A stretch of DNA of 33,932 nucleotides, taken from positions 1-33,932 of the forward strand of contig JACQAD010000277.1 in assembly GCA_016195125.1 (NCBI GenBank), given 5' to 3'. The first letter of the stretch is position 1. Each line of letters begins with the position of its first letter. The DNA is from Magnetospirillum sp. (GTDB lineage: Bacteria > Pseudomonadota > Alphaproteobacteria > Rhodospirillales > Magnetospirillaceae). A program made the position numbers and the translations under genes. Positions 6,001 to 21,840 of the stretch are shown piece after piece. The notes under the pieces were generated by a model. That model had not been told where the DNA came from and made no database searches. It worked only from the letters and a program-made list of their open reading frames with translations.

Positions 6001-9000
6001 ACGACGTCAATTCCGGCGCCAGCGCCTATTTTGCCTCCAGCCTGGGGGCGTGGACCAACGGCAATCTGACCGTGTCGATCAGCGGCGCCAGCGCCGATAC
6101 GGCCCATGACCAGTTGAGCATCGGCGCCATCGGGCTGATCACTACCTCGGGCGCCACTGCCGGTTCGACAGTGTCCTATAACGGCCACCAGATCGGTACC
6201 ATCGCCACCGGGGCGGCCGGCACCCCCGGCCAGATGCTGACCATCAAGCTCTCCGGCCAGTACGCCACCAACGCGGCGGTGCAGGCCCTGGTCAACGCCA
6301 TCCAGTTCAGCGACAGCGGCACCACCAACAGCCTCGGCAACCGTACCGTCACCTTCACAGCCACCGATGCCTACGGCAAGAGCGCCTCGGTCACCGATAC
6401 GGTCACGGTGGTGGGGGTTCCGGCCATCAGCGGTGCCAGCTACGATCCCTTTACCGGCATCCTGACGATCACCGGCACCAACTTCACCACGGTGGCCGGT
6501 AATTACACCCTGGCCAACCTGACCCTGTCGGGCGAGGGCAGCAGCACCTACAGCCTGGGCAATGGTGACGCCGTCACCGGCACGCCCACCGCCACCAGCG
6601 TTCAGATCCAGATCGCCAGTGCCAACCAATCGGCGGTGGATGCCCTGTTCGACAAGAGCGGCACCACGGCGCTGGTCTCCACCACTCACAATTTCAACGT
6701 CGCCGCCTTGGCCGGCTGGGACGCCAACGGCTCGGTCTCGGCCTTCGCCCAGGCGACCAACACGGTAAGCGTGGCCAGCACCGGCACGCCGACGCTGACC
6801 AACAACAGCCCCACCATCGCGTCCGGCACCACCATCGGCAGCACGGCGCAATTCATCGACACCAGCACCATCACCGTCACCGACGCTCCCGACCTGTCGG
6901 GCAGCGGCATGTGGGCGGGCGGCAACCTGACGGTGGCGTTCGGCGCCACCAACCGCGACACCGCCCACGACATGCTGAGCGTCGGGACCGGCGGCGGCAT
7001 CACCGTTTCCGGCAGTAATGTCTCCTATAACGGCACCGTGATCGGGACACTGCAGACCGGGGCCACTGGTGCCCCCAACCAGAACCTGACCATCAAGTTC
7101 AGCGGGGCGGCCGTCAATGACGCCGCAATCGCCGCGCTGGTCAACGCCATTCAGTTCAGTGACACCGCGACCACCACCGCCGGCACCCGCAAGCTGACCT
7201 TCACTCTGACCGACGCCTACGGGCGCAGCAGCTCCGGTCTGGCCGAGAAGGTCTATGTGACGCCGGACACGCCGCCTGCTTACGTCAACGGCAACGGCAC
7301 CCAGACCGTCAATACCGGCCGCGACACGGCGGTGACCATTTCCTCCGCCACCCTGTCGGTCAGCGATACCGATGCCAATCAGAACGAGACCTGGTCGGCC
7401 AGCGTCGCGCCCTCGCACGGCACGCTGTCCTTCTCCATGACCAATGCCGGTTCGGGCAGCACCAGCATCGCCGGGCCGGTAGTCACCTATACGCCGGCTG
7501 GCGGCTATGTGGGCAGCGATACCTTCACCATCCAGGTCAGCGACGGCCAGGGCGGCGTGGTCGCCAAGATGTTCAACGTCAACGTCATCGCCCCGGTGAT
7601 CCAGAGCATCGTGCGGGTCGGATCGGCCGCGCCGACCAAGGCGACCACCGATTCCTTCACCGTCACCTTCAACGAGACGATCAGCGGTCTCTCCGCCGCC
7701 AATTTCAGCCTGGGCACCACCGGTTCGGTGACCGGCACCATCGGCACGCCCACCAGCAGCGATGGCGGCAAGACCTGGAGTGTGGCGGTGACCGGCGTCA
7801 GCGGCACCGGCACCCTGGGCCTCAACCTGCTCAGCAATCTGACGTCCATCACCGACAGCTACAGCCTGTCGCCCAGCAGCGGCTATACCGATACCGCCAG
7901 CCTTTACACCATCGACAACACCGCGCCGGTGGTCACCGGCGTCACCTTGAATGCCGCCGCCTACAAGGTCGGCGATACGGTGACCGCCACCATCACCACC
8001 GATGCCTATGACGGCAACGGCGCCTATGCCTTAAGCGCCGGCACTATCGACGGCGCGACCTTGGCGGGGTGGACCTACAACACCGGCACCCATTCGGGCA
8101 CCGCCACCTTCACCGTGACCACGGCGCTGACCGACGTGCTGAGCGGCTTGGTGCCGCTCAGTGTCCAGGTGGCCGACGTGGCGGGCAATGTAAGCACCGC
8201 CTATACGACCGGCGTGGCCGGAACGATCATCGACAGCCATGCCCCGAGCGCGGTCGCTTTGTCCAACACAGTGGCGCCGCTGGCGGCCAATGGCGTGGTC
8301 GGAACTCTGACCTCCACCGATGCCAGCACGGGGGCGGAAAGCTTCACCTATGCCATCACCGGCGGAGCGGACGCGGCGAAGTTCCAGGTGGTCGGCAACA
8401 CCCTGCAGGTGGCCAACGCCACCACGCTGGTCGGCAATACCAGCTACACCGTCACCGTGCGGTCCACCGATCTTGGCGGCAACAGCGTCACCCAGACGCT
8501 GACCCTGACCGGCGCCAGGGGGCCGACCGCCTCGGCCGGCGGCACACTGACCTACAACGAGCGGTCGGCGGCGGCGGTGATCGATACGGGCGTCACTCTG
8601 GTCAACGCCACCGGGGCGGCCAATATGACCGGCGCCACAATCTCCATTTCATCAGGCTTCGTGGCCGGCGACGTGCTGGCCTTCACCAGCCAGAACAACA
8701 TCACCGGCAGCTATAATTCCGGCACCGGCGTGCTCATCCTCTCCGGCGCCGATTCCTTCGCCAACTATCAGGCGGCGCTGCGCTCGGTGACCTTCGCGGC
8801 GCCCTCGCTCTACGAGACGGCGACCACGCCCCGCACAATCACCTGGGCGGGGACCGACACCAACGGCACCGGCGGCACCGCCACCAGCACGGTGAGCGTG
8901 GTCTATGTCAATGCGTCGCCGACCCTGTCGCTGACCGGCACCGCCAATGCCAGCATCAACACGGCGGCAGGGGCCAGCGGCGGCACGGCCCTGTTCACCG

Positions 9001-12000
9001 GCGCCAATGCCTCGACCCTGGAAGCGGGCCAGAGCATTACCGGGCTCACCCTGGCGGTGAGCGGCCTGGCGGATGTGGGGGCCGAGCAGTTGCGCATCGG
9101 CGGCACCTGGGTCTCCCTGACCTCGGGGGCCAGCGGCACGGCCGGCGGCATCGCCTACACGGTCGGAACCATCACCGGCGGCGCCACCACGGTAACGCTG
9201 AGCAAGAGCGATACGGCCGCCAACTGGAACACCACCATCACCGGCCTGTCTTACAAGGATACCGCCGCCGGCTCATCCTCGGTGGGGGCGCGCAGCTTCA
9301 CCCTGACCAAGATCTCGGATAGCGGCGGCACCGGCGCGGGCGGCAGCCCCGACACCACGCTGAGCAATCAGGCCATTGTCACCCTGTCGGCCAACGACAC
9401 CCCGGTGATCACGGTTCCGGGCGGCCAGACCATCAACAATGCCGGGGCCAACGCCATCACCGGTGTCAGCGTCTCGGACACCATCGTTGGGGGGGCGGTG
9501 ACCGCCACGGTAAGCGCCGGTCACGGCACGCTGGGCTTCACCGGCGCCGGGATCACCGGCAACAATTCGGCGTCGGTGACCATTTCGGCGGCCAGCGTCA
9601 GCGCGCTCAACACCATCCTGGGGACGCTCAATTACACCACCAGCCTGACCACCTCGGGAGCCGATTCCATCACCGTGTCGGTCAACGATAATGGCGGCAG
9701 CTATATCGGCGGCGCCAAGAGCGCGTCCGGCACCATCGCGGTCAGCGTCACCAACGGCACCCCAGTGGTGAACGCGCCGTCCAGCGTCACCGATACCCTG
9801 AGCGGCCAGTATGCCGTCACCGGCATCAGTGTGGCCGAGGCCTTGTCGGGTCCGTCCATGACCGCCACGCTGAGCGACAGCCGCGGCAATCTGCATGTCA
9901 CCGCCGGTGGCGCCACGGTCGGCGGCAACGACAGCGCCAGCGTCACCATCACCGGCACCCTGGCACAGCTGAACACGGCGCTGGCCAGCCTTAAATACAC
10001 CACCACCCTGACCGATACCGGCGCCGACGTCATTTCCATCAGCGTCAACGACAATGGCAAGAACGCCAGCGGCGCGGTCAACGTCACGGTGACCGGAAAT
10101 GACACCCCGGTGCTGGCGTTGGCCACCACCCAGAGCTTCCATGACACCAATTACCATGGCCTCACCGGAGTGGCGGTGACCGACACGCTGGGCGGTGCCA
10201 GCGTCACCGCCACCCTGGCGGCTACCAGCGGCAATCTGCGGGTGACGGCGGGCAGCGGCGTCACAGTCACCGGCAACGGCACCGGCAATGTGAGTATCTC
10301 CGGCTCGCAAGGTTCGGTGAACGCGGCGCTGGGGACGCTGCAATACGCCACGACGGCCACCAGTACCGCCAACGACACCATCACGGTGAGTTACAACGAC
10401 AATGGTGGCAATCTGGTGGGTGGGGCCAAGAGCGCGTCCGGCACCATCGCGGTCAGCCTGATCGGCAACCAGCCGGCAACCATCACCACTCCGGCGTCGC
10501 AGAGCTATACCGACGCGGTGCAGCACGCCATTTCCGGCCTGGCCCTGGCCGATACCTACAGCAATTCCAGCGTCACCGCGACGGTCAGCGACCTGCACGG
10601 TAATCTGAACTTTACCGCCAGCGGCAGCGCCAGCATCGGCGGCAACGACAGCGGCAGCGTCACCATCACCGGCAGCCTTGCGGATGTCAGCAGCACGCTG
10701 AACAGCCTCAAATACACCACCACGGCGACAGGGACGACCAGCGACACCATCAGCCTGTCGATCAATGACAACGGCGCCACCGCCAACCTGATCGGCGGCG
10801 ACAAGACGGCATCCACCAGCATTGCCGTCTCGCTGACCGGGAACGACATTCCGGTGGTGACGGCGCCGGCGTTGCAGAGCTTCACCGATACGAACCAGCA
10901 CGCCATTTCCGGCGCTGCGGTGGCCGATACCCTGTCGGCCGCCTCGGTAACCGCCACGGTGGCGGCGCAATCGGGTAACCTCAACTTCACTGCCAGCGGC
11001 GCGGCCGGTATTGGCAGCAACAACAGCGGCAGCGTCACCATCACCGGCACCCTGGCCGACGTCAACGCCACGCTCGCCAGCCTGAAATACACCACCACCG
11101 CCACCGGCACCGCCGGCGACACCGTGACGGTTTCGGTCAATGACAACAACACCAACGGCATCGGCGGCGCCAAGACCGGAAGCAACAGCTTCCAGATCAA
11201 CCTGACCGGCAACGACGCGCCGGTGGTCACGGTCCCCGGCACCCAGGATATCTCTGACCTCACCGCTCATGCCCTGTCCGGCATCAGCCTCAGCGACACC
11301 TATAGCGGTGCCACGGTCACCGCCACCGTTTCAGCAAGCGTGGGGACGCTGACCGGGACCGGCTTCACGGGAAGCGGCACCGGGTCGATGACCATCACCG
11401 GCACCCAGGCCAATGTGAATGCCGCGTTGGCCACCGTGCAATACACGGCCGCCGATGATGGTTCGGGTGGCGCTTCCGCCGACGTGGTCACCGTCCAGGT
11501 CAACGACAACAACACGAGCGGAGTGGGCGGCGCCAAGACCACCAGCCGCACGGTGGCGATCACCCTGATCAATAACGACACGCCGTCCATTGCGGTACCG
11601 GCCCAGCAGACCATCAACGATACGACGACCCATGCCATTTCCGGCATTTCGGTGACCGACAGCCTGGACGGCACCAGCTACGTCGCCACCGTGTCCGACA
11701 CGGCGGGCATCCTCACCATGACCACCGGCAGCGGCGGGGCCACCATCAGCGGCTCGGGCAGCACCAGCGTCACCGCTTCGGGCAGTACGCTGGCGGATGT
11801 GAATTCGGCCCTTGCCACCCTGACCTATGCCACCACCGCCACCAGCACCGGCGGCGAGACCATTACGGTCTCCATCAATGACAACGGCAGCACCAAGGCC
11901 CGCATCACCGGCGACAAGACCGGCACCACCACCCTGGATGTGGCGCTGATCGGCAATGACACGCCGGTCCTGACCATGCCGGCCACTCAGACGGTCACCA

Positions 12001-14459
12001 CCAGCGCTGCCAATGCCATTTCCGGTATCGCGGTGGCCGATACCTACAGCGGCAGCAGCCTGACTGCCACGGTGAGCGCCAGTCACGGAACACTGTCGTT
12101 CACCGGCAGCGGCGTCACCGGCAACAATTCCGCCTCGGTGAGCATTTCGGCAGCCAGCGTCAGCGCGCTCAACACCATCCTGGGGACGCTCAATTACACC
12201 ACCAGCCTGACCGCCAGCGGCAGCGATTCCATCACGGTCACCGTGGATGATGGCGGCGGCAGCCGAATCGGCGGCGCCAAGACGGCGACCTCCTCGGTCG
12301 CGGTCAATGTCGTCGGCAACGACACGCCCGTCGTCAATGTCGCCACCGAACAGACCATCAGCGACACCAACGCCCATGCCCTTTCCGGCGTCGGGCTTAC
12401 CGATGGGGCCAGCGGTACCACCGTCACCGCCACGGTGACCGCCCAGCACGGCAACCTCACTTTCACCGGCGGCGGCGTCACCGGCAACGGCACCGGCAAC
12501 GTCACCATCAGCGGCACGGCCTCGGCGGTGAACACTATCCTGGGGACGCTGCAATACACCACGACAGCGACCGCCACCGGGTCGGACACCGTCTCGGTCA
12601 CCATCAACGACGGAGCGACCTCCCTGGTCGGCGGCGCCAAGAGCGCCACCAATACCTTCCAGATCGACCTGATCGGCAATGACACCCCGACGCTGTCGCT
12701 GGCCTCGGCACAGGGCTTAAGCGACACCAACGCCCATGCTCTGTCCGGCATCGGGGTCACGGATGGCTACAGCGGTGGCACCGTCACCGCCACCTTGCAG
12801 GACACCACCGGGCATCTGCACGTCACCACCGCCGCCGGCCTGACGGTGACTGCCAACGATACCAACAGCGTTTCCCTGTCCGGCACGCTGTCGGCGATCA
12901 ATACCGCGCTGGGGACGGTGACCTACAGCGCCACCACCTCGGGCAACGACAACATCACCATCTCCGTCGACGACGGTGGCAGCACGCTGATCGGCGGACA
13001 CAAGACCACCAGCGGCACGGTGGTGGTCAACGTGGCCGGCAATGACGCCCCGACCATCACCGTGCCGACGACGCAGACCATCAATGATACCGCCCAGCAT
13101 GCCATCGGCGGCGTCGTGGTCTCCGACACCTATCACAACACCACGGTGACGACGACGGTGAGCGCCCTTTACGGCAACCTCAACGTCACCAATGGCGGCG
13201 GCGCGGCGGTGGTCACCAACAACGACACCGGCACGGTGACCATCAACGGCTCATTCGCCGATGTGAACATCGCGCTGAGCACCATCAAGTACACCACCAC
13301 CCGCGCTACAGCGGGTAGTGACGATATCTCCATCGCCTTCAACGATAACGGCACCACCGCCAATCTGCTGGGCGGCAGCAAGAGCAGCACCGCCTATGTA
13401 TTCGTGGCAGCCACCAAGCCGCCGACCGGGCCGGCCACCTCCGGGGCACCATCAGTTCCGCTGGGGGGTTCGGGTGGAATACCCGGCTCGACCGTGACCA
13501 TCCGCGACGGCGGAACCACGGTAGGGACCGCGACGGTCGACAACAATGGCAACTGGACCTTCACGGCACCCGCCGGGGAGGGCAGTCACAGCTACACGTC
13601 TCAGGAGACCGATCCGCACGGCAAGGTCGGGCCGCAATCCATCCCCCTGACCACCGTCGTGTCGCTGCCGAAGCCTCCGCCGCCACCCCCGCCGCCACCG
13701 CCGGCACCGGTGGTCGAGGCTCCCAAACCACCCCCGCCCCCAACCGAGGCCCCGGTTCTGGTTACGTCCATCCGGGCGGCGGTCAGTGATGCAGGTGCCT
13801 TCAATCAAGGCAGCCAAGGTGGTGGTGACGCGGTTGCTGCCAAGGTTGCCGCCCTGACAACCGGTGGCGGCTTCCAGGTGGTGGTTTCCACCGCCGCCGT
13901 GAATGCGGTGCGCGACGGCGCCCTGTTCGTCGCCAAGGGCATTCCCACCATTGATGCCACCAGCAATGCCATCAGCTTTGCGGTGCCGGCCGACGCCTTC
14001 GGCCATACCAATGCGGATGCCGGCATCCAATTGGCCGCGAAAATGACCGATGGTCGACCCCTGCCTCCTTGGGTGTCGTTCGATCCGACCAAGGGAACTT
14101 TCGTCGGCGAAGCCCCTGAAGGGTTCAAGGGAACCCTGTCGGTGGTGGTGGTGGCGCGTGACAGTTCCGGGCATGAAGTGGCAACCACCTTCCGCATCCG
14201 TGTGGGAGGGGGAGCGGCACAGGATGCCGCGCCGACCAAACCCCAGGCTCAAGGTGAAGCCGGCGAACGGCCTTCGACCGGCGCTCCCCGGCAAGGCGAT
14301 TCTGGCCCGGCACTTGACGGCAAGCCGGCCAAGCTGGGGCAGCGTCACGGTGACAAGCAGGTCGGTAAGGTTGCCTTCACCCAACAACTGAAACTGGCCA
14401 GCCGTAATGCGGCCTTTGCCCGCCATGCCACTCTGGCGGCCCGCGCGGTGAGGTCATGA
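3..14459 (+). CDS. Giant DUF4347-domain repeat protein, putative secreted adhesin (5'-partial)
   Basis: The reading frame is open from the first complete codon at 3. The GTG codons at 39 and 42 lie inside the conserved start of the DUF4347 domain, so the true start is outside the window; 4,818 residues are visible. Order of parts: DUF4347-type domain (about 15-520), with SHG at 198-206 and GCN at 333-341; an Ig-like and a cadherin-like domain (about 840-1375); five long repeats (about 1857-7265) interrupted by a beta-propeller-like segment (about 3550-4700); cadherin/Ig-like domains (about 7270-9390); eleven repeats of about 122 residues (9393-13410); another Ig-like domain; a proline-rich hinge (13668-13758); a putative-Ig domain (about 13930-14205); and a basic C-terminus. 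It is very rich in Thr, Ser, Gly and Ala and poor in Cys. I infer a secreted or surface adhesin carried by the exporter genes that follow. No RTX nonapeptides are visible near the C-terminus. Confidence 0.93.
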   Translation, partial: AADPSLDGGKTEVVFVDTSIADYQHLVAAVKTGIEVELIDGNQDGLVQMAAWAGSHSGYDSISLLSHGSEGTVRAGSFVIDDYNISVPEIRARLAQVGAALKPGGDLLLYGCNVAEGADGQQFVNDLAAVTGRTVAASSHVVGSDGTWTLDDTTGTVTATLFKDSGFKGDLADSQYVLNEGTVVAGAILQDTYNGAPFSDEDVSGLPTGYTFGYINSANHQFYALSSGVFVNRGAVIALQTSTTCYNGYHEFTVHISAANTGTVSVDIVYGIIMTGGFTPTLSNPTIAANGLKTSTSVVIDGSSSSTDAGATITVYDNGSSIGTTTADSSGNWSYTANLAAGSHPITAKATETGYNASGLSNTANIIVDTGPTFTNANSVTVNNSSPFALTATVTDPASASITYSVSTAAGHGTAGINSSSGVISYTPTGGYLGYDTFVIRAVDGYNVASTQTITVLNDNPPTLTTTSSSPMYIVGNAPVVVDSGITLNDADTPSSIAAFGGGSLRAHLSNSDTANDSLSVVAQTLANSHVIAVTGNTITDNGTTIGTFTGGSNGTDLVVTFASGVTSTQATDIARAIEFSGGNTSSTALRTITFTASDGLGVSANGSDTARALLGPTILSATYDPATGNLVLNGGDFTTSTGDYTLSGLTLSGEGSGTYTLGNGDAITGTPTSTSVTIHIASANQASVDALFDRNGTTALTNGHAFNINAALNWDQHGTTHAPAVATNGVTVTSSGTPTLGNANSPAPGLASTDTTTVLTLESGSVLVADAPDLSGAGMWNGGTLSVAMAATNRDSAHDQLSIAASGGITVFGSVVSYNGNAFATLQGTATGTSLQFTLSGAAANDAAIAALAKAIRYQETGTTTGGDRTINFTVTDAYGRSSAPLAAVAHVYTPPAITGVAYDANTGLLSITGTNLTLNPTDFTLSKLTITGEGSGSYTLNNADSINSTSTTQLVIQIDPANQPTLDAILDKQGTTAAINTTHTFNLALAAGWDANVIVTEAVSATNTVTVSSSATPTLTTTGATTIYDTNVGSNPGTVITTSVTATDMALVTAWNTGNLTASVAAASGGVYDSNADQLTIAVTGGITTSGATAGSTVSYNGTVIGTIKSGATGIPGQNLTITLNASATSTAIGALVNAIQFSDSTATSTGNRAVSFRVTDAYGATSAALSNTVSVVPAPAITSTGAIAGGWSPLAALPSGTALGDEFFRVVPGQNGALYAAYNDAGNLGHVYKYANGAWTQLGATFSFQITDLEVAPTGAADAGTPYVMSAVGVNPTVYVDKYNATTSTWANALIGTSSFSPLSVVGNSCTITNFAIDTSSKLYFGGTYVSGSSWSVVAYEYSAYRSGYYILSSSAGFLWGLQSWAVMGKGDGLITYYGAIGQVAQQAAVNMGGYPTSYFYGTARVNSDAGSIPNLNMPDQDPSVTLSGGGSNYSGIASANGQYVFYASNYGSAGETSTVTDEGTGTSISGPPVASGGIPVGITVTPSGTLYAAVAYNSSSESIQIYRYTGSSWVAYGTAVSLAANTWSDLISDTNGNISLATVGSGSGSAPYTAQVYHYAAPGVFYDPYTANLTITGTNFTTNTTNTADYTLSKMTISGEGGVSAYTLGNGDAITSLSSTQIVIHIASANQASVDALLDAKGANAAVTTGNYFNLSAAQGWDTSGGIIAPAETINTINVTSTGTPTLTNSNPIAPVEVYNAPTPKVVDSSTITVTDQPDFSGNGVWASGSLTASITAGQDTSHDELLVGNVGAITNSGGTISYNGNLIGTVDGTANGTPSHALTINFAHNSYITDAAIQALVNAIQFTDTGTTTTGDRTISIVATDAYSRATTAVTDTVHVVTGPTISGATYDPYTGILTIQGGAFVGGTANVTLSSLGITGEAAGGTFTLSGANATVTNVTSSAVTIQISPATQQTLNAILDRNGLSAVTSGTFNLNAGVAWDSFGGVNAPAAATNVISVTSSGTPSFTHTLTTTTDTNFQSSLDTVDSSTVTVNDVNSGASAYFASSLGAWTNGNLTVSISGASADTAHDQLSIGAIGLITTSGATAGSTVSYNGHQIGTIATGAAGTPGQMLTIKLSGQYATNAAVQALVNAIQFSDSGTTNSLGNRTVTFTATDAYGKSASVTDTVTVVGVPAISGASYDPFTGILTITGTNFTTVAGNYTLANLTLSGEGSSTYSLGNGDAVTGTPTATSVQIQIASANQSAVDALFDKSGTTALVSTTHNFNVAALAGWDANGSVSAFAQATNTVSVASTGTPTLTNNSPTIASGTTIGSTAQFIDTSTITVTDAPDLSGSGMWAGGNLTVAFGATNRDTAHDMLSVGTGGGITVSGSNVSYNGTVIGTLQTGATGAPNQNLTIKFSGAAVNDAAIAALVNAIQFSDTATTTAGTRKLTFTLTDAYGRSSSGLAEKVYVTPDTPPAYVNGNGTQTVNTGRDTAVTISSATLSVSDTDANQNETWSASVAPSHGTLSFSMTNAGSGSTSIAGPVVTYTPAGGYVGSDTFTIQVSDGQGGVVAKMFNVNVIAPVIQSIVRVGSAAPTKATTDSFTVTFNETISGLSAANFSLGTTGSVTGTIGTPTSSDGGKTWSVAVTGVSGTGTLGLNLLSNLTSITDSYSLSPSSGYTDTASLYTIDNTAPVVTGVTLNAAAYKVGDTVTATITTDAYDGNGAYALSAGTIDGATLAGWTYNTGTHSGTATFTVTTALTDVLSGLVPLSVQVADVAGNVSTAYTTGVAGTIIDSHAPSAVALSNTVAPLAANGVVGTLTSTDASTGAESFTYAITGGADAAKFQVVGNTLQVANATTLVGNTSYTVTVRSTDLGGNSVTQTLTLTGARGPTASAGGTLTYNERSAAAVIDTGVTLVNATGAANMTGATISISSGFVAGDVLAFTSQNNITGSYNSGTGVLILSGADSFANYQAALRSVTFAAPSLYETATTPRTITWAGTDTNGTGGTATSTVSVVYVNASPTLSLTGTANASINTAAGASGGTALFTGANASTLEAGQSITGLTLAVSGLADVGAEQLRIGGTWVSLTSGASGTAGGIAYTVGTITGGATTVTLSKSDTAANWNTTITGLSYKDTAAGSSSVGARSFTLTKISDSGGTGAGGSPDTTLSNQAIVTLSANDTPVITVPGGQTINNAGANAITGVSVSDTIVGGAVTATVSAGHGTLGFTGAGITGNNSASVTISAASVSALNTILGTLNYTTSLTTSGADSITVSVNDNGGSYIGGAKSASGTIAVSVTNGTPVVNAPSSVTDTLSGQYAVTGISVAEALSGPSMTATLSDSRGNLHVTAGGATVGGNDSASVTITGTLAQLNTALASLKYTTTLTDTGADVISISVNDNGKNASGAVNVTVTGNDTPVLALATTQSFHDTNYHGLTGVAVTDTLGGASVTATLAATSGNLRVTAGSGVTVTGNGTGNVSISGSQGSVNAALGTLQYATTATSTANDTITVSYNDNGGNLVGGAKSASGTIAVSLIGNQPATITTPASQSYTDAVQHAISGLALADTYSNSSVTATVSDLHGNLNFTASGSASIGGNDSGSVTITGSLADVSSTLNSLKYTTTATGTTSDTISLSINDNGATANLIGGDKTASTSIAVSLTGNDIPVVTAPALQSFTDTNQHAISGAAVADTLSAASVTATVAAQSGNLNFTASGAAGIGSNNSGSVTITGTLADVNATLASLKYTTTATGTAGDTVTVSVNDNNTNGIGGAKTGSNSFQINLTGNDAPVVTVPGTQDISDLTAHALSGISLSDTYSGATVTATVSASVGTLTGTGFTGSGTGSMTITGTQANVNAALATVQYTAADDGSGGASADVVTVQVNDNNTSGVGGAKTTSRTVAITLINNDTPSIAVPAQQTINDTTTHAISGISVTDSLDGTSYVATVSDTAGILTMTTGSGGATISGSGSTSVTASGSTLADVNSALATLTYATTATSTGGETITVSINDNGSTKARITGDKTGTTTLDVALIGNDTPVLTMPATQTVTTSAANAISGIAVADTYSGSSLTATVSASHGTLSFTGSGVTGNNSASVSISAASVSALNTILGTLNYTTSLTASGSDSITVTVDDGGGSRIGGAKTATSSVAVNVVGNDTPVVNVATEQTISDTNAHALSGVGLTDGASGTTVTATVTAQHGNLTFTGGGVTGNGTGNVTISGTASAVNTILGTLQYTTTATATGSDTVSVTINDGATSLVGGAKSATNTFQIDLIGNDTPTLSLASAQGLSDTNAHALSGIGVTDGYSGGTVTATLQDTTGHLHVTTAAGLTVTANDTNSVSLSGTLSAINTALGTVTYSATTSGNDNITISVDDGGSTLIGGHKTTSGTVVVNVAGNDAPTITVPTTQTINDTAQHAIGGVVVSDTYHNTTVTTTVSALYGNLNVTNGGGAAVVTNNDTGTVTINGSFADVNIALSTIKYTTTRATAGSDDISIAFNDNGTTANLLGGSKSSTAYVFVAATKPPTGPATSGAPSVPLGGSGGIPGSTVTIRDGGTTVGTATVDNNGNWTFTAPAGEGSHSYTSQETDPHGKVGPQSIPLTTVVSLPKPPPPPPPPPPAPVVEAPKPPPPPTEAPVLVTSIRAAVSDAGAFNQGSQGGGDAVAAKVAALTTGGGFQVVVSTAAVNAVRDGALFVAKGIPTIDATSNAISFAVPADAFGHTNADAGIQLAAKMTDGRPLPPWVSFDPTKGTFVGEAPEGFKGTLSVVVVARDSSGHEVATTFRIRVGGGAAQDAAPTKPQAQGEAGERPSTGAPRQGDSGPALDGKPAKLGQRHGDKQVGKVAFTQQLKLASRNAAFARHATLAARAVRS
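1380..7265 (+). repeat. Five tandem long protein repeats (about 280 residues each)
   Basis: Diverged in-frame repeats start near 1857, 2694, 4700, 5550 and 6421. Half of an extra unit precedes them from about 1380. Each unit opens with a YDPxTGxLxIxG-like motif, continues with YTL..LTxSGEG and a VDALxD segment, and closes with a half containing VxYNGxxIGT, ALxxAIxF and a TDAYGRS-like motif. Units two and three are separated by the propeller-like insert. The alternation of two sub-domains suggests stacked beta-sandwich modules. Confidence 0.8.
3550..4700 (+). other. Beta-propeller-like insert within the repeat array
   Basis: This in-frame segment breaks the repeat pattern. It has blade-like signatures with aromatic strands: GALYAAY near 3657, HVYKYANGAWTQLG near 3699, TLYAAVAY near 4482 and IYRYTGSSWVAYG near 4528. 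Such blades are typical of kelch or WD-like propellers and would form a globular head within an otherwise rod-like protein. The middle (about 3955-4215) is clearly AT-richer than the surroundings, with codons that are rare elsewhere in this window. The propeller assignment is inferred from pattern only. Confidence 0.5.
9591..9650 (+). repeat. 60-nt exact direct repeat, copy 1 (repeat unit 1)
   Basis: These 60 bases are identical to 12153-12212 in unit 8, while flanking bases differ on both sides. They encode the segment containing SALNTILGTLNYTT. Such identity within an otherwise diverged array suggests recent exchange between units. Confidence 0.85.
9714..9746 (+). repeat. 33-nt exact direct repeat, copy 1 (repeat unit 1)
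   Basis: This tract encodes AKSASGTIAVS at the end of unit 1 and is identical to 10425-10457 at the end of unit 3. It is a second sign of sequence exchange within the array. Confidence 0.8.
10425..10457 (+). repeat. 33-nt exact direct repeat, copy 2 (repeat unit 3)
   Basis: This is the second copy of the tract at 9714-9746, about 0.7 kb away and in the same frame. Confidence 0.8.
12153..12212 (+). repeat. 60-nt exact direct repeat, copy 2 (repeat unit 8)
   Basis: This is the second copy of the 60-base tract at 9591-9650. The two copies lie about 2.56 kb apart in the same reading frame. Confidence 0.85.
13668..13758 (+). other. Proline-rich hinge of the giant protein
   Basis: The frame encodes two runs of prolines (about ten and five in a row) separated by an APVVEAPK-like linker. 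The hinge sits between the repeat stalk and the C-terminal putative-Ig domain. It may act as a flexible or envelope-spanning spacer near the end that would be held or recognised by the exporter. Confidence 0.85.
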
Positions 14460-14537: not shown

Positions 14538-16190
14538 ATGACTATCGGAACAGCATCCCGCCGCATGGCCCATCTTTTGGCCGCCGTTTCCACCATGGCC
14601 CTGCTGACGGCCTGCGCGGTGACGCCGACGCCTTACAGCCAGGATGAGTTCATGGCTCGAGCCAAGGCCGACCGCGCCGCCATGTTCGACGGGCAAGAGG
14701 TTCTGTCGAAGCCGCTGACCTTGCCCGAGGCGGTGGCCCGGGTGCTGAAATACAATCTGGACAAGCGGGCCAAGATGATGGACGAGGCGCTGGCCTTGGG
14801 CCAGCTTGACCTTGACCGCTTCGATCTTCTGCCAAAGCTCACCGCCAATGCCGGCTATACCGAGCGCTCATCGCCCAACGCCACAAGGTCGCGCGACCTC
14901 TATACCCAGACCACCAGCACCTCCAATCCCAGCTATTCGGCGGATCGCTTCTCCATCACCAGCGATCTGGGACTGACCTGGAATATCCTCGATTTCGGCG
15001 TCAGCTATTTCTCCGCCCAGCAGAATGCCGACCGCGCCCTGATCGCTTCGGAACGCCGCCGCAAGACGGTGGCCAATCTGGTCCAGGAGGTGCGCTTCAC
15101 CTTCTGGCGGGCCGCCGCCGCCCAAGTGCTGAAGAGTAAGGTCACCGATATTATCACCACCGCCGAGAAGGCCCTGGCCGATTCCGAGCGGGTCGAGAAT
15201 GAACGTCTGCGCAATCCGACCGAGTCGCTGCGGGTCCAGAAGACTTTGCTGGAAAGCATCCGTCAGCTGGAGGCCATCGATCAGGAACTCACTACCGCCA
15301 AGGCCGAACTGGCGGCATTGATCAACGTGCCGCCCGGCAGTGATTTCCAGCTCGATATCCCCGAGAACGGCGGCATGACCGTTCCGGAATGGTCGCTGCC
15401 CATCGAGCAGATGGAAGAGGCGGCCCTGATCAACAATCCCGACCTGCGCGAGCAGGATTATCAGAGCCGTATCGCCGTCGATGATACCCGCAAGGAAATC
15501 CTGAAGCTGCTGCCGGGCATCACCTTCAGTCTGTCACGGCAATATGATCAGAACTCGTTCCTGATGGATAATCGCTGGAATGAGGTGGGGACCAAGATCA
15601 CCTGGAACCTTCTCAATCTTCTGTCGGGGCCGGATCGTATCAAGCATGCGGATACCGCCGAGGATGTCGCCACGGCCAAGCGCGTCGCCCTTAGGATGGC
15701 GGTGCTGGCCCAGGTCCATGTGATCTCGCACCAATTCCTGAGTGCCGCAAAGCAGTACGAGCGGGCCGACAAGCTGTGGAAGATCGAGCAACGTCTGGCG
15801 GAGGCGTCCGGCAACCAGAGCCGGGGCGGCACCCAGAACGAGATCGAGCGGGTCAGCACCGAGACTTCGGCCATCGCCGCCGAGCTGCGCCGCTTCCAGA
15901 CTTACGCCCAGATGCAGTCGTCCTACGGCAAGCTGCAATCGACCATCGGCGCTGACACGATCCCCGAGCGCCTTGCCACCCACACGCTTGACGGTGTGTC
16001 CGGGGCTATTGCCGTGAACTTCGGCGGTAAGACGCCGTCGCCCGATCCGGTTCCCACGGCGGTTCCCGCCGGGAAAGAGACGGTCGCGCCCGTGGCGGCG
16101 CTTGAACCGGGACGCCAGGACGTGGTGCGTGATGGCCTGGTCTGGCTGGGCGGCAAGATCGCCAGTCTGGCCGATCAGGTCGGCAAATAA
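14538..16190 (+). CDS. TolC-family outer membrane efflux lipoprotein
   Basis: The 550-residue product should form the trimeric outer-membrane channel of the exporter. The N-terminus has a signal peptide ending in a lipobox (LLTAC, Cys at about residue 26). The body has the two-fold pattern of outer membrane factors: long Ala/Glu/Arg-rich helices (residues about 175-260 and 380-450) alternating with strand segments such as GLTWNILDFGVSYF and the paired TKITWNLLNLLSGP. The ATG at 14538 follows an AAGG at 14532-14535. It lies 78 bp after the giant gene and overlaps the next start by one base (TAATG), so it is almost certainly cotranscribed. The C-terminal 60 residues are Pro/Ala-rich and extend beyond the usual fold. 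Its exact substrate is inferred from context. Confidence 0.9.
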   Translation: MTIGTASRRMAHLLAAVSTMALLTACAVTPTPYSQDEFMARAKADRAAMFDGQEVLSKPLTLPEAVARVLKYNLDKRAKMMDEALALGQLDLDRFDLLPKLTANAGYTERSSPNATRSRDLYTQTTSTSNPSYSADRFSITSDLGLTWNILDFGVSYFSAQQNADRALIASERRRKTVANLVQEVRFTFWRAAAAQVLKSKVTDIITTAEKALADSERVENERLRNPTESLRVQKTLLESIRQLEAIDQELTTAKAELAALINVPPGSDFQLDIPENGGMTVPEWSLPIEQMEEAALINNPDLREQDYQSRIAVDDTRKEILKLLPGITFSLSRQYDQNSFLMDNRWNEVGTKITWNLLNLLSGPDRIKHADTAEDVATAKRVALRMAVLAQVHVISHQFLSAAKQYERADKLWKIEQRLAEASGNQSRGGTQNEIERVSTETSAIAAELRRFQTYAQMQSSYGKLQSTIGADTIPERLATHTLDGVSGAIAVNFGGKTPSPDPVPTAVPAGKETVAPVAALEPGRQDVVRDGLVWLGGKIASLADQVGK

Positions 16191-16915
16191 TGTCAATCCG
16201 CCTGGGATGGGCGGTCCCGGCCCTGTGCCTGTTGCCCTTCGGGGTGGCGGCACAGGAGCCGGTGATTCCGGTGCAATTGGTGGCGGTCAACTTCACCACC
16301 CTATCGTCGGAACTGCCGGCCAAGATCGACCGGATCACGGTGAAGGAAGGTGATCGCTTCAAGGAGGGCCAGCCGCTGGTGGTGTTCGACTGCACCATCC
16401 AGCGGGCGCAACTGGACGAGGCCAATGCGGTTCTGGCGGCGGCCGAGAAGTCCAAATCCGTCCATAAGCGCCTGCTGGAGCTGAATTCCACCGGCAGCCT
16501 GGAGGCGGAAAAATCGGTCTCCGATGCCGCCGTGGCCCAGGCCAAGCTGAACTCGGCCCGCGCGGTGACCAGCAAATGCGCCATTACCGCTCCGTTCCCC
16601 GGTCGGGTGGTCGAGCAGAAGGCTCGCGCTCATCAATATATCCAGGCGGGCCAGCCGATCCTCGACATCCTCGACGATTCCGCCCTCGACGCCGAATTCA
16701 TCGTGCCGAGCAATTGGGGGCAGGGACTGAAGGTCGGCCAGACCATGCAGATCGCGGTGGACGAGGTCAGGAAGACCTATCCGGCCAAGCTCGGCCGCAA
16801 GGGGGCCAAGGTCGATGCGGTCAGTCATTCGGTCAAGATGATTGCCGAGATCCGGGGGGATTATCCTGAGTTGATGGCCGGGATGACCGGCCGGGTGCTG
16901 ATGTCTCCGCCATGA
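16190..16915 (+). CDS. Short periplasmic adaptor (HlyD/RND membrane-fusion family)
   Basis: This 241-residue protein has a cleavable signal peptide (likely cut after GVAA near residue 21). A lipoyl-like half motif follows (KIDRITVKEGDRFKEGQPL, residues about 44-62), then a short helical hairpin (about 70-125), the second lipoyl half (CAITAPFPGRVVEQKA) and a beta-barrel region (DAEFIVPSNW onward). It is shorter than most adaptors (usually 350-450 residues), with a reduced hairpin and membrane-proximal domain. It probably bridges the TolC-like channel to inner-membrane parts. The start overlaps the preceding stop by one base and its stop overlaps the next start as ATGA. Confidence 0.88.
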   Translation: MSIRLGWAVPALCLLPFGVAAQEPVIPVQLVAVNFTTLSSELPAKIDRITVKEGDRFKEGQPLVVFDCTIQRAQLDEANAVLAAAEKSKSVHKRLLELNSTGSLEAEKSVSDAAVAQAKLNSARAVTSKCAITAPFPGRVVEQKARAHQYIQAGQPILDILDDSALDAEFIVPSNWGQGLKVGQTMQIAVDEVRKTYPAKLGRKGAKVDAVSHSVKMIAEIRGDYPELMAGMTGRVLMSPP

Positions 16916-18204
16916 GTGATAATCCGCTGGTCGCCCTGCTGGGGCTGGAGGAACATGCCCGCCAGGCCGCCACCGTGGATGAACTGGGCTTCGTCATGGT
17001 CAACGACACCCGCTCGCTGGTGGAGTACCGCCAGGCGGCGCTGGTGATCGACGACCGGCTGAAGGCGGTATCGGGCGTGGCCGCGGTGGAAAAGGGCGCC
17101 CCCTTCACCCTGTGGCTGGAGCGGATGGTGCAGCGTCTGGCCATCGACCGGCCGCGTGCCGCCGGTCCCGACGATCTGCACGGTCCCGATGCCGACGAAT
17201 GGTCGGAATGGCTGCCGCCCCATGTTCTGCTGTTGCCGCTGGCAGATAAGGGCACCCTGCTGCTGGCCCGTGATGGAGAGTGGCAGGAGGGCGAGGTCGC
17301 GCTCCTCGCCCATGCCTCGGGCGCCTTCGCCCATGCCTGGGCCTTCCTCCACAAGCCGTCACCGGTGACGGAATTGCGTGCCCGCCTGACCGCTATCCCG
17401 AAATGGCGGCTGAAACTCGCTGCCGGTATCGTTCTGATCCTGCTGTTTCCCGTACGGCTGTCGGTGCTGGCGCCATCCGAGGTGGTGGCCCATGATCCGG
17501 CGGTGATCCGCTCGCCCATGGAAGGCGTTGTCGAAAAGGTGCGGGTTACGCCCAATCAGGCGGTGGCGGAAGGCGATCTGCTGTTCGAACTGGACCGCAC
17601 CACGCTTTCCGGCAAGCTGGAAGTGGCGAAGAAAGCCCTGTCCACCGCCCAGGCCGAATTCGATCAGGCCACCCAGCAATCCTTTTTCGATCCCAAGGCC
17701 AAGGCGTCGGTGGCCATCGTCAAATCCCGTATCGACGAGCGCCAGGCCGAGGCGACGCAGTTGGAAGACCTGCTCGACCGCTCTCAGGTCAAGGCACCGC
17801 GCGCCGGAATCGCCGTGCTGGATGATCCCGCCGAATGGCAGGGCCGTCCGGTGAATGTGGGCGAGAAGGTGATGGCGGTGGCCGCCTCCGACGATGTGGA
17901 GGTGGAGGCCTGGCTGGCCCCCGCCGATGTCATCGCCCTGGAACCCGGCAATCCGGTGGTCGTATTCCTCAATTCCGATCCGCTGTCGCCGGTCACCGCC
18001 CGGCTGCTCTACGTCGCCTACGAGGCGATCCCCCAGCCCGATGGCACGCTGGGCCATCGGGTGCGGGCCAGACTGGACAAGGGGAGCACGCCGCCCCGGC
18101 TGGGCCTCAAAGGCACCGCCCGGCTCGACGGCCATCGGGTGGCCTTGATCTATTGGCTGGCGCGGCGGCCCTTGGGGGTGATTCGCACCTATCTGGGTCT
18201 GTGA
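16912..18204 (+). CDS. Membrane-anchored HlyD-like adaptor with a cytoplasmic N-terminal domain
   Basis: This 430-residue product has an unusual architecture. About 160 soluble N-terminal residues, possibly a GAF-like fold, contain no signal peptide. One membrane segment follows at about 167-186 (AAGIVLILLFPVRL). The periplasmic part has a lipoyl half (SPMEGVVEKVRVTPNQAVAEG), a helical hairpin with KALSTAQAEFDQA, the second lipoyl half (SQVKAPRAGIAVLDDP) and a beta-barrel. The N-terminal domain would be cytoplasmic and could sense a ligand or hold the substrate; that is inference. The ATG overlaps the preceding stop (ATGA) and the stop lies one base before the next ATG. This tight packing argues that the product works with both neighbours. 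Confidence 0.87.
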   Translation: MSDNPLVALLGLEEHARQAATVDELGFVMVNDTRSLVEYRQAALVIDDRLKAVSGVAAVEKGAPFTLWLERMVQRLAIDRPRAAGPDDLHGPDADEWSEWLPPHVLLLPLADKGTLLLARDGEWQEGEVALLAHASGAFAHAWAFLHKPSPVTELRARLTAIPKWRLKLAAGIVLILLFPVRLSVLAPSEVVAHDPAVIRSPMEGVVEKVRVTPNQAVAEGDLLFELDRTTLSGKLEVAKKALSTAQAEFDQATQQSFFDPKAKASVAIVKSRIDERQAEATQLEDLLDRSQVKAPRAGIAVLDDPAEWQGRPVNVGEKVMAVAASDDVEVEAWLAPADVIALEPGNPVVVFLNSDPLSPVTARLLYVAYEAIPQPDGTLGHRVRARLDKGSTPPRLGLKGTARLDGHRVALIYWLARRPLGVIRTYLGL

Positions 18205-18205
18205 C

Positions 18206-20305
18206 ATGGACGCCGTCGCCCTACCGCCGCTCCGCGACGAGCTTTCCCTGCATCAAGGCCCGGCCGGTCTCGACGGCGCTCCCACCTGGACCATCCGTGA
18301 TCCGGTGCGCAACAAGTATTTCCGTATCGGCTGGGCCGCCTTCGAGGCTCTATCCCGCTGGGGCGGCACGCCGGAGGCGGTGGCCGAGGCAGTCAATGCC
18401 GAGACCACCCTGGACCTCGAGCCAGAGGATGTGGTGGAGGTCGCTAAATTCCTCCTCGGCAACCAACTGACCCGGCCCGGTAATCACGGCGACACGCTAC
18501 GCATCGCCCAACAGGCGGCGGCCGAGCATCAATCCCTGTTCCACTGGCTGCTGCATCATTACCTGTTCTTCCGTATCCCGCTGGTGCGGCCGGACCGGCT
18601 TCTGACCGTCACCGCCCCCTGGGTGTGGTGGCTGGGCGGCGCCTGGTTCCGCTGGGCGAGCGTGGCGGCCCTGGTGCTGGGCTTGGGCCTGATCGCCCGT
18701 CAATGGGAGGTCTTCTCCGCCACCTTGGTGGACAATCTCAGCCTGTCGGGAATGCTGAGCTATGCCGTCGCCCTGTCGCTGGTCAAGGTCGTCCACGAAT
18801 TGGCTCATGCCTACACCGCCAAGCGGATGGGGTGCCGGGTGCCGACCATGGGGCTGGCCTTCCTGGTGATGTGGCCGGTGCTCTATACCGATGTCAACGA
18901 GACCTGGACCCTGGCATCGCGCCGCCAGCGGCTGCTGGTGGGCGGGGCGGGCATCCTGGCCGAACTGGCGGTGGCCGCCTGGGCGACCCTGCTCTGGGCC
19001 TTCCTGCCCGAGGGCGGGTTGCGCCAGGGCGTCTTCGTGCTGGCGACCCTGACTTGGGTCAGTTCGCTGGCCATCAACTTGTCGCCCTTCATGCGCTTCG
19101 ACGGCTATTTCCTGGCCATGGACGCGTTGGAGATGCCCAATCTCCACCCCCGTTCCTTCGCCATGGCGCGGTGGTGGCTGCGCGAAATTCTATTCGGCCT
19201 GGGCGAAGCGCCGCCCGAACCCATGGCGCCGAGGCGACGCCTCGCCATGGTGGTGTTCGCCTTCGCCGTCTGGATCTATCGGCTGACCTTGTTTCTCGGC
19301 ATCGCCGTGCTGGTCTACCACTTCTTCATCAAGGCGGTCGGCGTGCTGCTGTTCGCAGTCGAGATGGGCTGGTTCGTCTTCCTGCCGTTCTGGACCGAGT
19401 TCCGCGAATGGGCCAAGCGCAAGGATGACATCAGGGCCAGGACCAACTGGCGCCGCCCCGCCATGGGATTGGGGCTGGCCTTGCTGGTGGCGATCATCCC
19501 CTGGCGCACCCGGATCGAAGCGCCCGCCATGCTGTCGGCCGAGGTGATGACGCCGCTGTTCCTGCCCGGTCCGGCCCGGCTGGAGGCAGTGCTGGCGACA
19601 CGCGGCCAGCATGTGGAGAAGGGGGCCAAGCTGCTGGCCTTCATCTCTCCCGATATCGACCACCGCCGGGCTGGCACCGCCGCGCGTCTGGCCGGCAAGT
19701 CGGCCGAGCTGGAAGCGGTCAAGCTCGACCCCTTCGGCCGCGAGCGATTGTCGGCGCTCACCGAGGAGGTGTCGCGCCTCGCCGCCGAGCAGGCCGCCTT
19801 GGATGCCGAGGCCGAACGGCTGAACATCACCGCCCCCCAGGAGGGCAGCTTTCTCGACCCGCTGCCCGATCTGAAACCGGGCACCTGGCTGTCGCCGAAG
19901 AGCCAATTGGGCCTGATCCGCGCCGACGGCAAGGTCCAGGCCCTGGCCTATGTGGCCGAGGACGATCTTGCCCGCATCACCGAGGGCGACATGGCGTCCT
20001 TCGTGCCCCACGGCCTGGACTTTTCCCGATTATCCGGCACGGTGACCGCCATCGACCGCAACCCGGCCAAGATATTGACCGAACCCGCCCTGGCCTCGAC
20101 CCATGGTGGCGATATTCCGGTGCGGGTGGCGGGGCAGGCATTGGTGCCCCAGGGCGGATTCTACCGTGTCGTCATTACCCTCGACGGCGTCCAACCCGAC
20201 CTCAAGCTGGCTGGCCATGTCATGATCAACGGCCAGGGCCAGAGCACGGTGGGGCGGCTGGCCCGTTCCGTCCTGGTGGTGCTGGTCCGCGAATGGGGCG
20301 CCTGA
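18206..20305 (+). CDS. PqqD-like / M50 site-2-type metalloprotease / HlyD-like fusion
   Basis: This 699-residue inner-membrane protein combines three modules. Residues about 10-90 resemble a PqqD-type peptide-binding domain (WTIRDPVRNKYFRIG, then a helical stretch). Residues about 130-390 carry several membrane segments with the M50 zinc site: HELAH gives H197, E198 and H201, and NLSPFMRFDGYF gives the likely third ligand D299. After a further membrane segment near 415-435, residues about 440-699 form a lipoyl/hairpin/barrel region like HlyD adaptors. Proteins of this layout occur next to adaptor and TolC genes in other bacteria, but their reaction is poorly defined. It could clip, tether or release the giant substrate during export. 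All zinc ligands appear intact, so I expect it to be active. Confidence 0.88.
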   Translation: MDAVALPPLRDELSLHQGPAGLDGAPTWTIRDPVRNKYFRIGWAAFEALSRWGGTPEAVAEAVNAETTLDLEPEDVVEVAKFLLGNQLTRPGNHGDTLRIAQQAAAEHQSLFHWLLHHYLFFRIPLVRPDRLLTVTAPWVWWLGGAWFRWASVAALVLGLGLIARQWEVFSATLVDNLSLSGMLSYAVALSLVKVVHELAHAYTAKRMGCRVPTMGLAFLVMWPVLYTDVNETWTLASRRQRLLVGGAGILAELAVAAWATLLWAFLPEGGLRQGVFVLATLTWVSSLAINLSPFMRFDGYFLAMDALEMPNLHPRSFAMARWWLREILFGLGEAPPEPMAPRRRLAMVVFAFAVWIYRLTLFLGIAVLVYHFFIKAVGVLLFAVEMGWFVFLPFWTEFREWAKRKDDIRARTNWRRPAMGLGLALLVAIIPWRTRIEAPAMLSAEVMTPLFLPGPARLEAVLATRGQHVEKGAKLLAFISPDIDHRRAGTAARLAGKSAELEAVKLDPFGRERLSALTEEVSRLAAEQAALDAEAERLNITAPQEGSFLDPLPDLKPGTWLSPKSQLGLIRADGKVQALAYVAEDDLARITEGDMASFVPHGLDFSRLSGTVTAIDRNPAKILTEPALASTHGGDIPVRVAGQALVPQGGFYRVVITLDGVQPDLKLAGHVMINGQGQSTVGRLARSVLVVLVREWGA

Positions 20306-20311
20306 TCCATG

Positions 20312-20317
20312 AAGGAG
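20312..20317 (+). promoter_or_regulatory. Ribosome binding site deciding the start of the small secreted protein
   Basis: AAGGAG lies six bases before the ATG at 20324. An upstream in-frame ATG at 20309 overlaps this site and has no comparable site of its own, so 20324 is the better start. Confidence 0.75.
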
Positions 20318-20323
20318 AACATC

Positions 20324-20611
20324 ATGAAACGATTGATCACTCTACTGGCGGCGTTGCTGCTCTGGACCGGGGCGGCCCTGGCCCAATCCGGCCCCATCGA
20401 CAAGGCCTATGAGGACGGTAAGGCCGCCGAAATCTCTGCGGCTCGGCTTCGGTTGGCCACACGCCCAGCGGCAACCGGCGTGCAGGAGTTGAACGAGGCG
20501 GAAGGATTGTTGCGGCACCTGAAGGCCGCCGTGGACATTAAAGCCCGCCGTAAAATCGCCACCGAACTCGAACTGGCAGTGACCCGCCTCAATATCCTTG
20601 CGAATGAATGA
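20324..20611 (+). CDS. Small secreted protein, last gene of the exporter operon
   Basis: The 95-residue product starts with a clear signal peptide (LITLLAALLLWTGAALA, cleavage before QSGP). The mature part of about 75 residues is predicted to be mostly helical and charged, with Leu/Ala heptad-like spacing (LNEAEGLLRHLKAA and KIATELELAVTRL). I do not recognise a family. Its position 18 bp after the M50/HlyD gene, with a strong ribosome binding site, places it in the same operon. A periplasmic accessory or chaperone for the exporter is plausible but unproven. Confidence 0.75.
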   Translation: MKRLITLLAALLLWTGAALAQSGPIDKAYEDGKAAEISAARLRLATRPAATGVQELNEAEGLLRHLKAAVDIKARRKIATELELAVTRLNILANE

Positions 20612-21098: not shown

Positions 21099-21840
21099 TG
21101 AGGGATCGAATCTGGCGCTCACGGATATCCTGTGCGATTTCGGTCTGCGTCACGCCACGTCCACCCCCGTAATTGGCGATCAGCACCCGGTGGACGCGGT
21201 GGAAGGAGCCGTAGCTGCTTTCCTCCCATTCCTCCACCCGAGGGCTGCCGTCGAAGGTGACGACACGGCGTGGCCTGGAGGCGTTGCGCCTGACGGCGAA
21301 GATGGCCTCGGTAATCACCACGTAGATGCTGTCACTGGTGAAATAGCCGGCCAGAATGCCAAGAGCTGCTCCCGACGCCATGCCAATTCCTCCGCCCACG
21401 CCCGTTCCGGTCGCTCCGCCGATGGCGCCCCCCGCCGCGCCACCGATCAGTCCGCCGCCGGCGGAGCCGAGGAAGCCAAACTGGGCCATCATGTCGCTGT
21501 CGAATTGCTGGCTGCGGACGACGTTGAGATCGACCTTGAGCCCGAAATCATTGCCGTCCGAGCGCTCGTAGCCCTTGCTTACGTATCCCTGGTAGAGCCG
21601 CTCGCGGGTGGCATCCAGATCCCAGACCTGATCACCCGACATGTTGCGCAGGGCCAGCTTCAGCCGCCGGTTGGGAAACAGGGAGGAATCGGTGAACACC
21701 GACGAATCCGAACGCATGCCGTACATGCGGTCAGTTTTGGGATCGACCACCATGTCTGCGCGATTACCGCGCTGGCAGGCGCCTAGGGCGACGGCCAGGC
21801 CGGTGGCCAGGAACAGGCGCCGATCGATGCTCATGCTCAT
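21085..21840 (-). CDS. TraT-family outer membrane lipoprotein
   Basis: The 251-residue product has a signal peptide with a lipobox (VALGAC, Cys at about residue 22). A region like the TraT family follows (LKLALRNMSGDQVWDLDATRERL, then GYVSKGYERSD and LKVDLNVVRSQQFDSD). A long glycine-zipper stretch (residues about 126-165, repeated GGxxGG) is the family's putative membrane hairpin, followed by YVVITEAIFAVR. TraT proteins are surface lipoproteins of conjugative plasmids that block mating and resist complement; chromosomal relatives have less clear roles. The ATG at 21840 overlaps the stop of the upstream protease gene (ATGA), which implies coupled translation. A second ATG at 21834 is possible. 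Similarity to TraT is by pattern, not by search. Confidence 0.75.
   Translation of the reverse strand: MSMSIDRRLFLATGLAVALGACQRGNRADMVVDPKTDRMYGMRSDSSVFTDSSLFPNRRLKLALRNMSGDQVWDLDATRERLYQGYVSKGYERSDGNDFGLKVDLNVVRSQQFDSDMMAQFGFLGSAGGGLIGGAAGGAIGGATGTGVGGGIGMASGAALGILAGYFTSDSIYVVITEAIFAVRRNASRPRRVVTFDGSPRVEEWEESSYGSFHRVHRVLIANYGGGRGVTQTEIAQDIRERQIRSLISLI

Follow-up and report, generated by a model that had tools for sequence, protein, structure and literature searches.

Several described systems share parts with the locus presented here. In type I secretion (HlyB/HlyD/TolC; LapBCE, SiiCDF), HlyD adaptors and a TolC channel serve giant repeat adhesin cargo, and known TolC/HlyD protein exporters depend on an energised transporter. 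LapA-type giant adhesins possess an N-terminal retention module that is cleaved by a periplasmic protease. Site-2 proteases usually cleave membrane-held segments, and the substrate of SpoIVFB is pro-sigma-K. In daptide biosynthesis, an intramembrane site-2 protease fused to an RRE accompanies precursors with the motif ELExMEAP near their N-terminus, the leader is described as being removed by this RRE-dependent M50 peptidase, and a second RRE protein requires the leader residues L(-7) and M(-4) (PMC10036551).

A window of 33,932 nucleotides from Magnetospirillum sp. (assembly GCA_016195125.1, contig JACQAD010000277.1) was analyzed in this study, which revealed a gene encoding an RRE, an M50 protease and an HlyD adaptor in one polypeptide (RRE-M50-HlyD). 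This protein is probably the inner-membrane hub that reads the leader in an export cassette dedicated to the giant surface protein, whose gene lies just upstream. Similar to the daptide peptidase MpaP (NF041824), the closest described relative of its N-terminal two thirds, it carries an N-terminal RRE fused to an M50 domain. The NF041824 model matches all of 58 homologues (best 8e-53) and gives 152.6 bits with the window protein, which is alignable over residues 34-387, against an equivalog cut-off of 300. Different from MpaP, the window protein adds a C-terminal HlyD domain, its cargo is giant rather than a peptide, and modifying enzymes are missing. The daptide motif ELExMEAP and the motif aLEPRxMFDGAA of the giant proteins share an LE...M...acidic pattern, a likeness that is only suggestive.

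The HlyD adaptors, the TolC channel and the giant repeat protein resemble type I secretion, whereas the window cassette has no ABC transporter, its cargos bear an N-terminal leader, and an RRE-protease is built into an adaptor. The LEPR-XLL domain (NF012209) likewise represents an N-terminal LEPR motif on giant proteins, but LEPRxMFDGAA leaders fall below or outside this model. RseP and SpoIVFB have the same M50 core, HExxH...D residues and membrane topology, to which the window protein adds the RRE and HlyD domains. Residues 434-680 share the fold of MacA/EmrA adaptors (Z 14-16); where these use a lipid or a single helix as anchor, the window protein uses its M50 domain, and a partner transporter was not found. 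Within the open-licence literature, we found no description of a leader-reading protease-exporter and nothing relevant on the combination of M50, HlyD and TolC.

Domain Architecture of the RRE-M50-HlyD Protein

The original prediction for this gene was a fusion of PqqD-like, M50 and HlyD modules at residues 1-100, 130-390 and 440-699, with the zinc ligands H197, H201 and D299 and the catalytic E198 intact. Fold comparison and conservation, together with a Pfam match for M50, confirmed the fusion, and the boundaries were good. In Pfam, M50 reached 36.1 bits, above its cut-off, and two HlyD families scored slightly below theirs (HlyD_D23, 27.9 vs 30; HlyD_3, 21.6 vs 22.2). PqqD (PF05402) matched none of the 58 homologues at E <= 0.1, so the PqqD assignment in the window protein rests on fold.

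An AlphaFold2 model was built from the 58 homologues (mean pLDDT 88.7). The proposed check of the N-terminus by structure prediction did return a PqqD-like fold: the alignment to 6jx3_B (Table 1), the lasso-peptide RRE protein B1 with its leader bound, covers 81 of 85 residues with an rmsd of 2.7. In the model, this domain is a winged helix whose three strands (14-17, 28-32, and 37-41) and three helices (43-50, 56-66, and 73-85) follow the order seen in PqqD-like RRE domains. A profile search of the PDB with the RRE of this subfamily gave no relevant match. The M50 domain matches SpoIVFB (8vjl, Z 10.2) over residues 130-313 and RseP (7w6x, Z 10.1) over residues 179-371, and the match to MacA 9qgy_G comprises 217 residues between 434 and 677, with a barrel-sandwich and beta-barrel fold and a coiled hairpin.

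All four predicted active-site residues are unchanged throughout the 58 aligned homologues. The three-module architecture is kept from end to end in every one of them, down to approximately 41% identity, and therefore the fusion is not a product of chance. The fold matches together with the invariant catalytic residues indicate that the three modules are real.

Gene Content and Distribution of the Cassette

The giant gene of the window is followed by genes for a TolC-type channel, a short HlyD adaptor and a membrane-anchored HlyD adaptor, and RRE-M50-HlyD comes last (Table 1). The membrane-anchored adaptor has an N-terminal domain of about 165 aa without family assignment.

Table 1. Features of the export cassette and its downstream neighbour in the window.
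Feature	Position	Strand	Basis or remark
Giant protein, likely cargo	3..14459	+	>= 4818 aa; N-terminus and leader beyond contig start
DUF4347 domain of the giant protein	39..488	+	PF14252 E 2.3e-43
Conserved C-terminal tail of the giant protein (GKVAFTQQLKLASR...)	14364..14456	+	G[RK]xSLSEQLRxA in 65/65 matching cargo C-termini
TolC-type outer-membrane channel	14538..16190	+	Pfam OEP E 1.6e-26
Short periplasmic adaptor, HlyD/RND-mfp type, signal-like N-terminus	16190..16915	+	TIGR01730 109 bits, above cut-off
Membrane-anchored HlyD-type adaptor	16912..18204	+	HlyD_3 E 2.4e-16; homologue in 78/81 loci
RRE-M50-HlyD fusion	18206..20305	+	699 aa, ATG start
PqqD/RRE-like domain, residues 5-91	18218..18478	+	VIA-align to 6jx3_B, Z 10.6
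M50 membrane domain, residues 146-432	18641..19501	+	Seven predicted helices; RseP and SpoIVFB fold matches
HELAH zinc motif, H197-H201	18794..18808	+	Invariant in 58/58 homologues
Third zinc ligand D299	19100-19102	+	Invariant in 58/58 homologues
HlyD/MacA-type periplasmic adaptor domain, residues 434-680	19505..20245	+	MacA 9qgy_G Z 15.9
Small secreted protein, 100 aa, Sec-type signal	20309..20611	+	Homologue in 7/81 loci

At least 586 relatives of RRE-M50-HlyD were found in a scan of genome contigs covering 84,980 species. The 80 best relatives and the window formed a set of 81 loci, many of them cut by contig ends, in which comparison established the gene set of the cassette: the cargo C-terminus was found in 65 loci and the membrane-anchored adaptor in the number given in Table 1. 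The order of genes varies while the parts are constant, and the cargo gene of Beta- and Gammaproteobacteria often comes after those for TolC and the short HlyD adaptor. Cassettes occur in Alpha-, Beta- and Gammaproteobacteria and Magnetococcia, and annotated examples include those of Azospirillum brasilense Sp7, Burkholderia anthina, a Magnetospirillum gryphiswaldense plasmid, and plasmids of Escherichia coli and Citrobacter. About a quarter of the sampled Rhodospirillales genomes carry the RRE-M50-HlyD gene, as do 24 of 5,426 complete E. coli genomes (identity >= 99%). On the E. coli plasmid NZ_CP081687 (L094), the cargo and four machine genes form a five-gene unit between two IS elements.

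The IS-flanked cassettes of E. coli plasmids are complete with five genes, including a 13-kb Ig-like giant gene, and are followed by a gene annotated as malT. In pMSR-1, a small plasmid of M. gryphiswaldense (L092), the cargo position is occupied only by a 1.5-kb gene for an ELWxxDGT repeat protein, possibly a minimal or decayed cargo. Two loci titled Akkermansia muciniphila (L041 and L087) have copies that rank among betaproteobacterial ones, e.g., Limnohabitans, and are probably mislabelled bins.

Elsewhere in the window, a gene for an HtrA/DegP-like protease of trypsin fold (21837-23378, minus strand) is convergent with the cassette; no homologue of it was found near the cassette in the 80 other loci. 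By eye, open reading frames resembling an AMP ligase, a glycosyltransferase-acyltransferase and an MMPL-like exporter are present at 26532-33128, a region that may belong to a cluster of the aryl-polyene or fatty-acyl type.

Leader and Tail of the Giant Cargo

In cargos whose 5' end is intact, a basic stretch at the N-terminus leads into A-L-E-[PQ]-R-x-M-F-D-[GA]-A-A, behind which comes a low-complexity spacer; the distance from the likely start to this motif is usually no more than about 15-40 residues. The motif is partly set by the search patterns themselves; residues that the search expression left free are also well conserved (A at -1, M at +5, and A at +10). These leaders contain no Sec-type hydrophobic core, with a median best 15-residue hydropathy of 1.0 vs 2.1 for the small secreted protein of the window. 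The leader is present on cargos both with and without DUF4347, and a second cargo carrying it was identified in the genome of the window (contig C294, locus L116). One complete chromosome (G140) encodes nine leader-bearing cargos vs three machines, a ratio that agrees with recognition in trans.

At the C-terminal end of the cargo, a cadherin-like domain and a variable linker precede the tail G[RK]xSLSEQLRxA, which was seen in each of the 65 cargos matching the C-terminal query of the window. This conserved tail is a candidate second signal.

Co-occurrence of Leader and Machine

A machine profile built from the 58 homologues was applied to 297 genomes of the window's order. Of these, 76 had the machine, 74 had DUF4347, and 66 matched the leader DNA pattern, whereas a control with the pattern reversed had no match in any of the 297. 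Machine and leader were found together in 63 genomes, the machine without the pattern in 13, the leader without the machine in three, and neither in 218 (p 2e-47, a value that is overstated because phylogeny was ignored and the genomes counted are related by descent). The 13 genomes that have the machine but lack the pattern comprise seven with a variant leader (LEPRIMLDAA, LESRLMLDAA, LEPRLLFDGA, LEPRLMYDGA in two genomes, LEPRILLDAA, and LEPRLTFDGA), three in which the cargo N-terminus is off the contig, two with broken M50 or machine genes, and one with a member of a sister subfamily. As these seven do have a leader and the other six are accounted for, 70 of 70 readable carriers possess one. 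The three leader-positive, machine-negative genomes consist of an incomplete bin (66%), a case at a contig end, next to an adaptor gene, and a 3.6-kb contig.

Whether it is DUF4347, and not the leader, that goes with the machine was also considered and rejected: the DUF4347 proteins of two machine-free genomes (G130 and G251) start without any leader, and another genome (G107) has leader and machine and no DUF4347.

In a second sample of 250 genomes of the order of Variovorax, for which the leader pattern was slightly relaxed, machine scores split into those above 700 bits (27 genomes) and those of 220-315 bits only (21 genomes, in which the sister subfamily is the only one present). The leader was present in 25 of the 27 former genomes and in none of the 21 latter. 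The full table of both, machine only, leader only and neither reads 25/2/2/221 (p 7e-30, again overstated since phylogeny was ignored). One of the two leader matches outside the carriers resembles a chance match. As for the two misses, one cargo begins beyond its contig, and in the other genome (G418) no leader was resolved within the stretch examined. The pairing of leader and machine is thus well supported by comparison of genomes.

A Sister Subfamily With LEPR-XLL Leaders

Comparison also separates two sub-classes of machine and leader. The N-terminal domain of the sister subfamily matches Pfam PqqD in 10 of 10 members (28.0 bits vs a cut-off of 23.4 for the member shown), and its RRE profile matched PqqD 3g2b in the PDB at E 0.003. 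The catalytic residues are kept in 18 of 18 alignment rows, a set from which four antisense ORFs were excluded and which includes some divergent members of the main subfamily. When the RRE profiles of the two subfamilies were compared directly, no more than 30 columns aligned, with low probability. Giant cargos of the sister subfamily whose N-terminus could be reached carry LEPRxLLSAD leaders, five of five scoring above the cut-off of NF012209, while this model was below cut-off or absent in three LEPRxMFDGAA cargos, one of which (L011) was queried with an A-to-N change. The leader type therefore changes with the RRE-M50-HlyD subfamily, as a docking model predicts, and the sister subfamily apparently represents a second, parallel export class.

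At the sister-subfamily loci L145, L154, L155, L157, and L158, other giant proteins carry LEPR-XLL-type leaders, one of them with DUF4347. The papers found in the open-licence literature give no export function for LEPR-XLL or DUF4347.

Proposed Export Mechanism

The domain architecture, the gene set and the leader lead us to propose the following model. The cytosolic RRE would dock the short RiPP-like leader aLEPRxMFDGAA near the N-terminus of the cargo. The adjacent M50 site, likewise cytosolic, would most likely remove the leader, as described for MpaP in daptides, and by analogy with SpoIVFB the substrate of the protease is likely this cytosolic leader. Passage through the envelope would be by a conduit made up of TolC, the two partner adaptors and the HlyD domain, with the conserved tail of the cargo acting as a second signal. 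Binding of the leader by the RRE, its cleavage, the direction of transport, the energy source and the order of these events are what we infer from the parts.

Recognition, cleavage and transport had been predicted to be united in this protein, with either the giant protein or the small secreted protein as substrate. The modules for these activities are real; that M50 cuts the giant protein and that the fusion moves it are steps it may perform. With regard to the substrate, the conserved operon, the matched leader and the conserved tail point strongly to the giant protein as the likely one, and the small secreted protein was rejected, as it has an ordinary Sec-type signal and occurs in few loci (Table 1, the window included), all of them Rhodospirillales.

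Energy Source and ABC Transporters

The strongest alternative is that the cassette is an accessory to type I secretion, in which export by way of the C-terminal tail is driven by an ABC transporter from another locus, and the role of RRE-M50-HlyD is limited to tailoring or retaining the N-terminus. The need of known TolC/HlyD exporters for an energised partner and the conservation of the cargo tail are in its favour, as is a large ABC exporter encoded immediately downstream of one cassette (L072). ABC exporters matching an LssB-type T1SS model at E <= 1e-120 are encoded by 49 of 50 carrier Rhodospirillales, only eight of them above the curated cut-off. A test of independence from T1SS ABC transporters within Rhodospirillales was uninformative, since nearly every carrier has such exporters.

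Against this explanation, ABC, RND or MFS transporters are normally not encoded in the cassette; none of the ABC type is present in the window operon or on the five-gene unit of the E. coli plasmid, and an ABC signature is absent from the stretch examined around 71 of the 81 loci. For three T1SS ABC families, moreover, no match above cut-off was obtained in a Variovorax genome whose cassette is complete (L086/G314) or in a Polynucleobacter genome (L064/G297), an absence judged by cut-off in genomes whose completeness was not reported. Export is thus likely independent of an ABC partner, and we regard the accessory role as unlikely, with some weight left to it. The bolder proposal, a secretion system distinct from type I with RRE-M50 as the inner-membrane part of a TolC conduit, a cleavable RiPP-type leader and no dedicated ATP-driven transporter, is put forward tentatively, as a possibility with somewhat less than even prospects.

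Predicted Membrane Topology and Possible Timing of Cleavage

The seven helices predicted for the M50 region (146-165, 180-207, 239-266, 271-291, 342-373, 376-404, and 416-432) have consequences for an explanation in which M50 is a protease of post-export release or quality control, the leader serves as an inner-membrane anchor, and cleavage sheds the adhesin in a LapG/LapA-like manner. General knowledge on site-2 proteases and on LapA speaks for it, rather than any specific result of this analysis. An odd number of spans, however, pairs a cytosolic N-terminus with a periplasmic HlyD domain, and the charges of the loop 405-415 agree with a cytosolic side. According to the model, HELAH would, as in RseP, lie close to the cytosolic face of the membrane, the side that also holds the RRE. 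With both predicted to be cytosolic, the leader would be read prior to export or while it proceeds; a LapD-type regulator is also missing from the window cassette. Post-export release by M50 is accordingly considered improbable.

The Caspase-Like DUF4347 Domain

The DUF4347 domain has a caspase-like (clan CD) fold in a model with pLDDT 95.8, and its alignment contains a near-invariant His (SHG) and Cys (YGC), i.e., a His/Cys dyad. The nearest solved structure is 9qpe_G (Z 13.4), Tce1, a type VI effector of Pseudomonas, followed by CHAT, caspases and legumain (Z 6-9). In giant cargos, DUF4347 directly follows the leader after a short spacer. The domain may be a self-processing protease, and M50 and DUF4347 are both candidate leader peptidases. 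The position, fold and dyad would suit a scheme in which DUF4347 cleaves its own leader and RRE-M50 only docks and guides the cargo; yet the cargo of G107 lacks DUF4347 and still has leader and machine, and the HExxH of RRE-M50-HlyD is invariant, a site that a pure tether would not need. We judge this scheme quite improbable.

Kinship to daptide and epipeptide M50 peptidases suggests that the fusion could mature RiPPs, with the small secreted protein or a different small peptide as its substrate; this is extremely improbable given the rarity and own Sec-type signal of the small gene, the conserved giant cargo, and a window cassette in which no RiPP-modifying enzyme was found.

Implications

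A leader-reading inner-membrane hub would give a testable role to LEPR-XLL and LEPRxMFDGAA, motifs carried by very large proteins that had no assigned route of export. A further question is by what means a TolC/HlyD conduit could operate when no ABC, RND or MFS transporter partners it. If this reading is true, the LEPR-XLL domain would be the signal peptide of a secretion system other than type I, and leader-peptide recognition, known for small modified peptides, would extend to proteins of thousands of residues.
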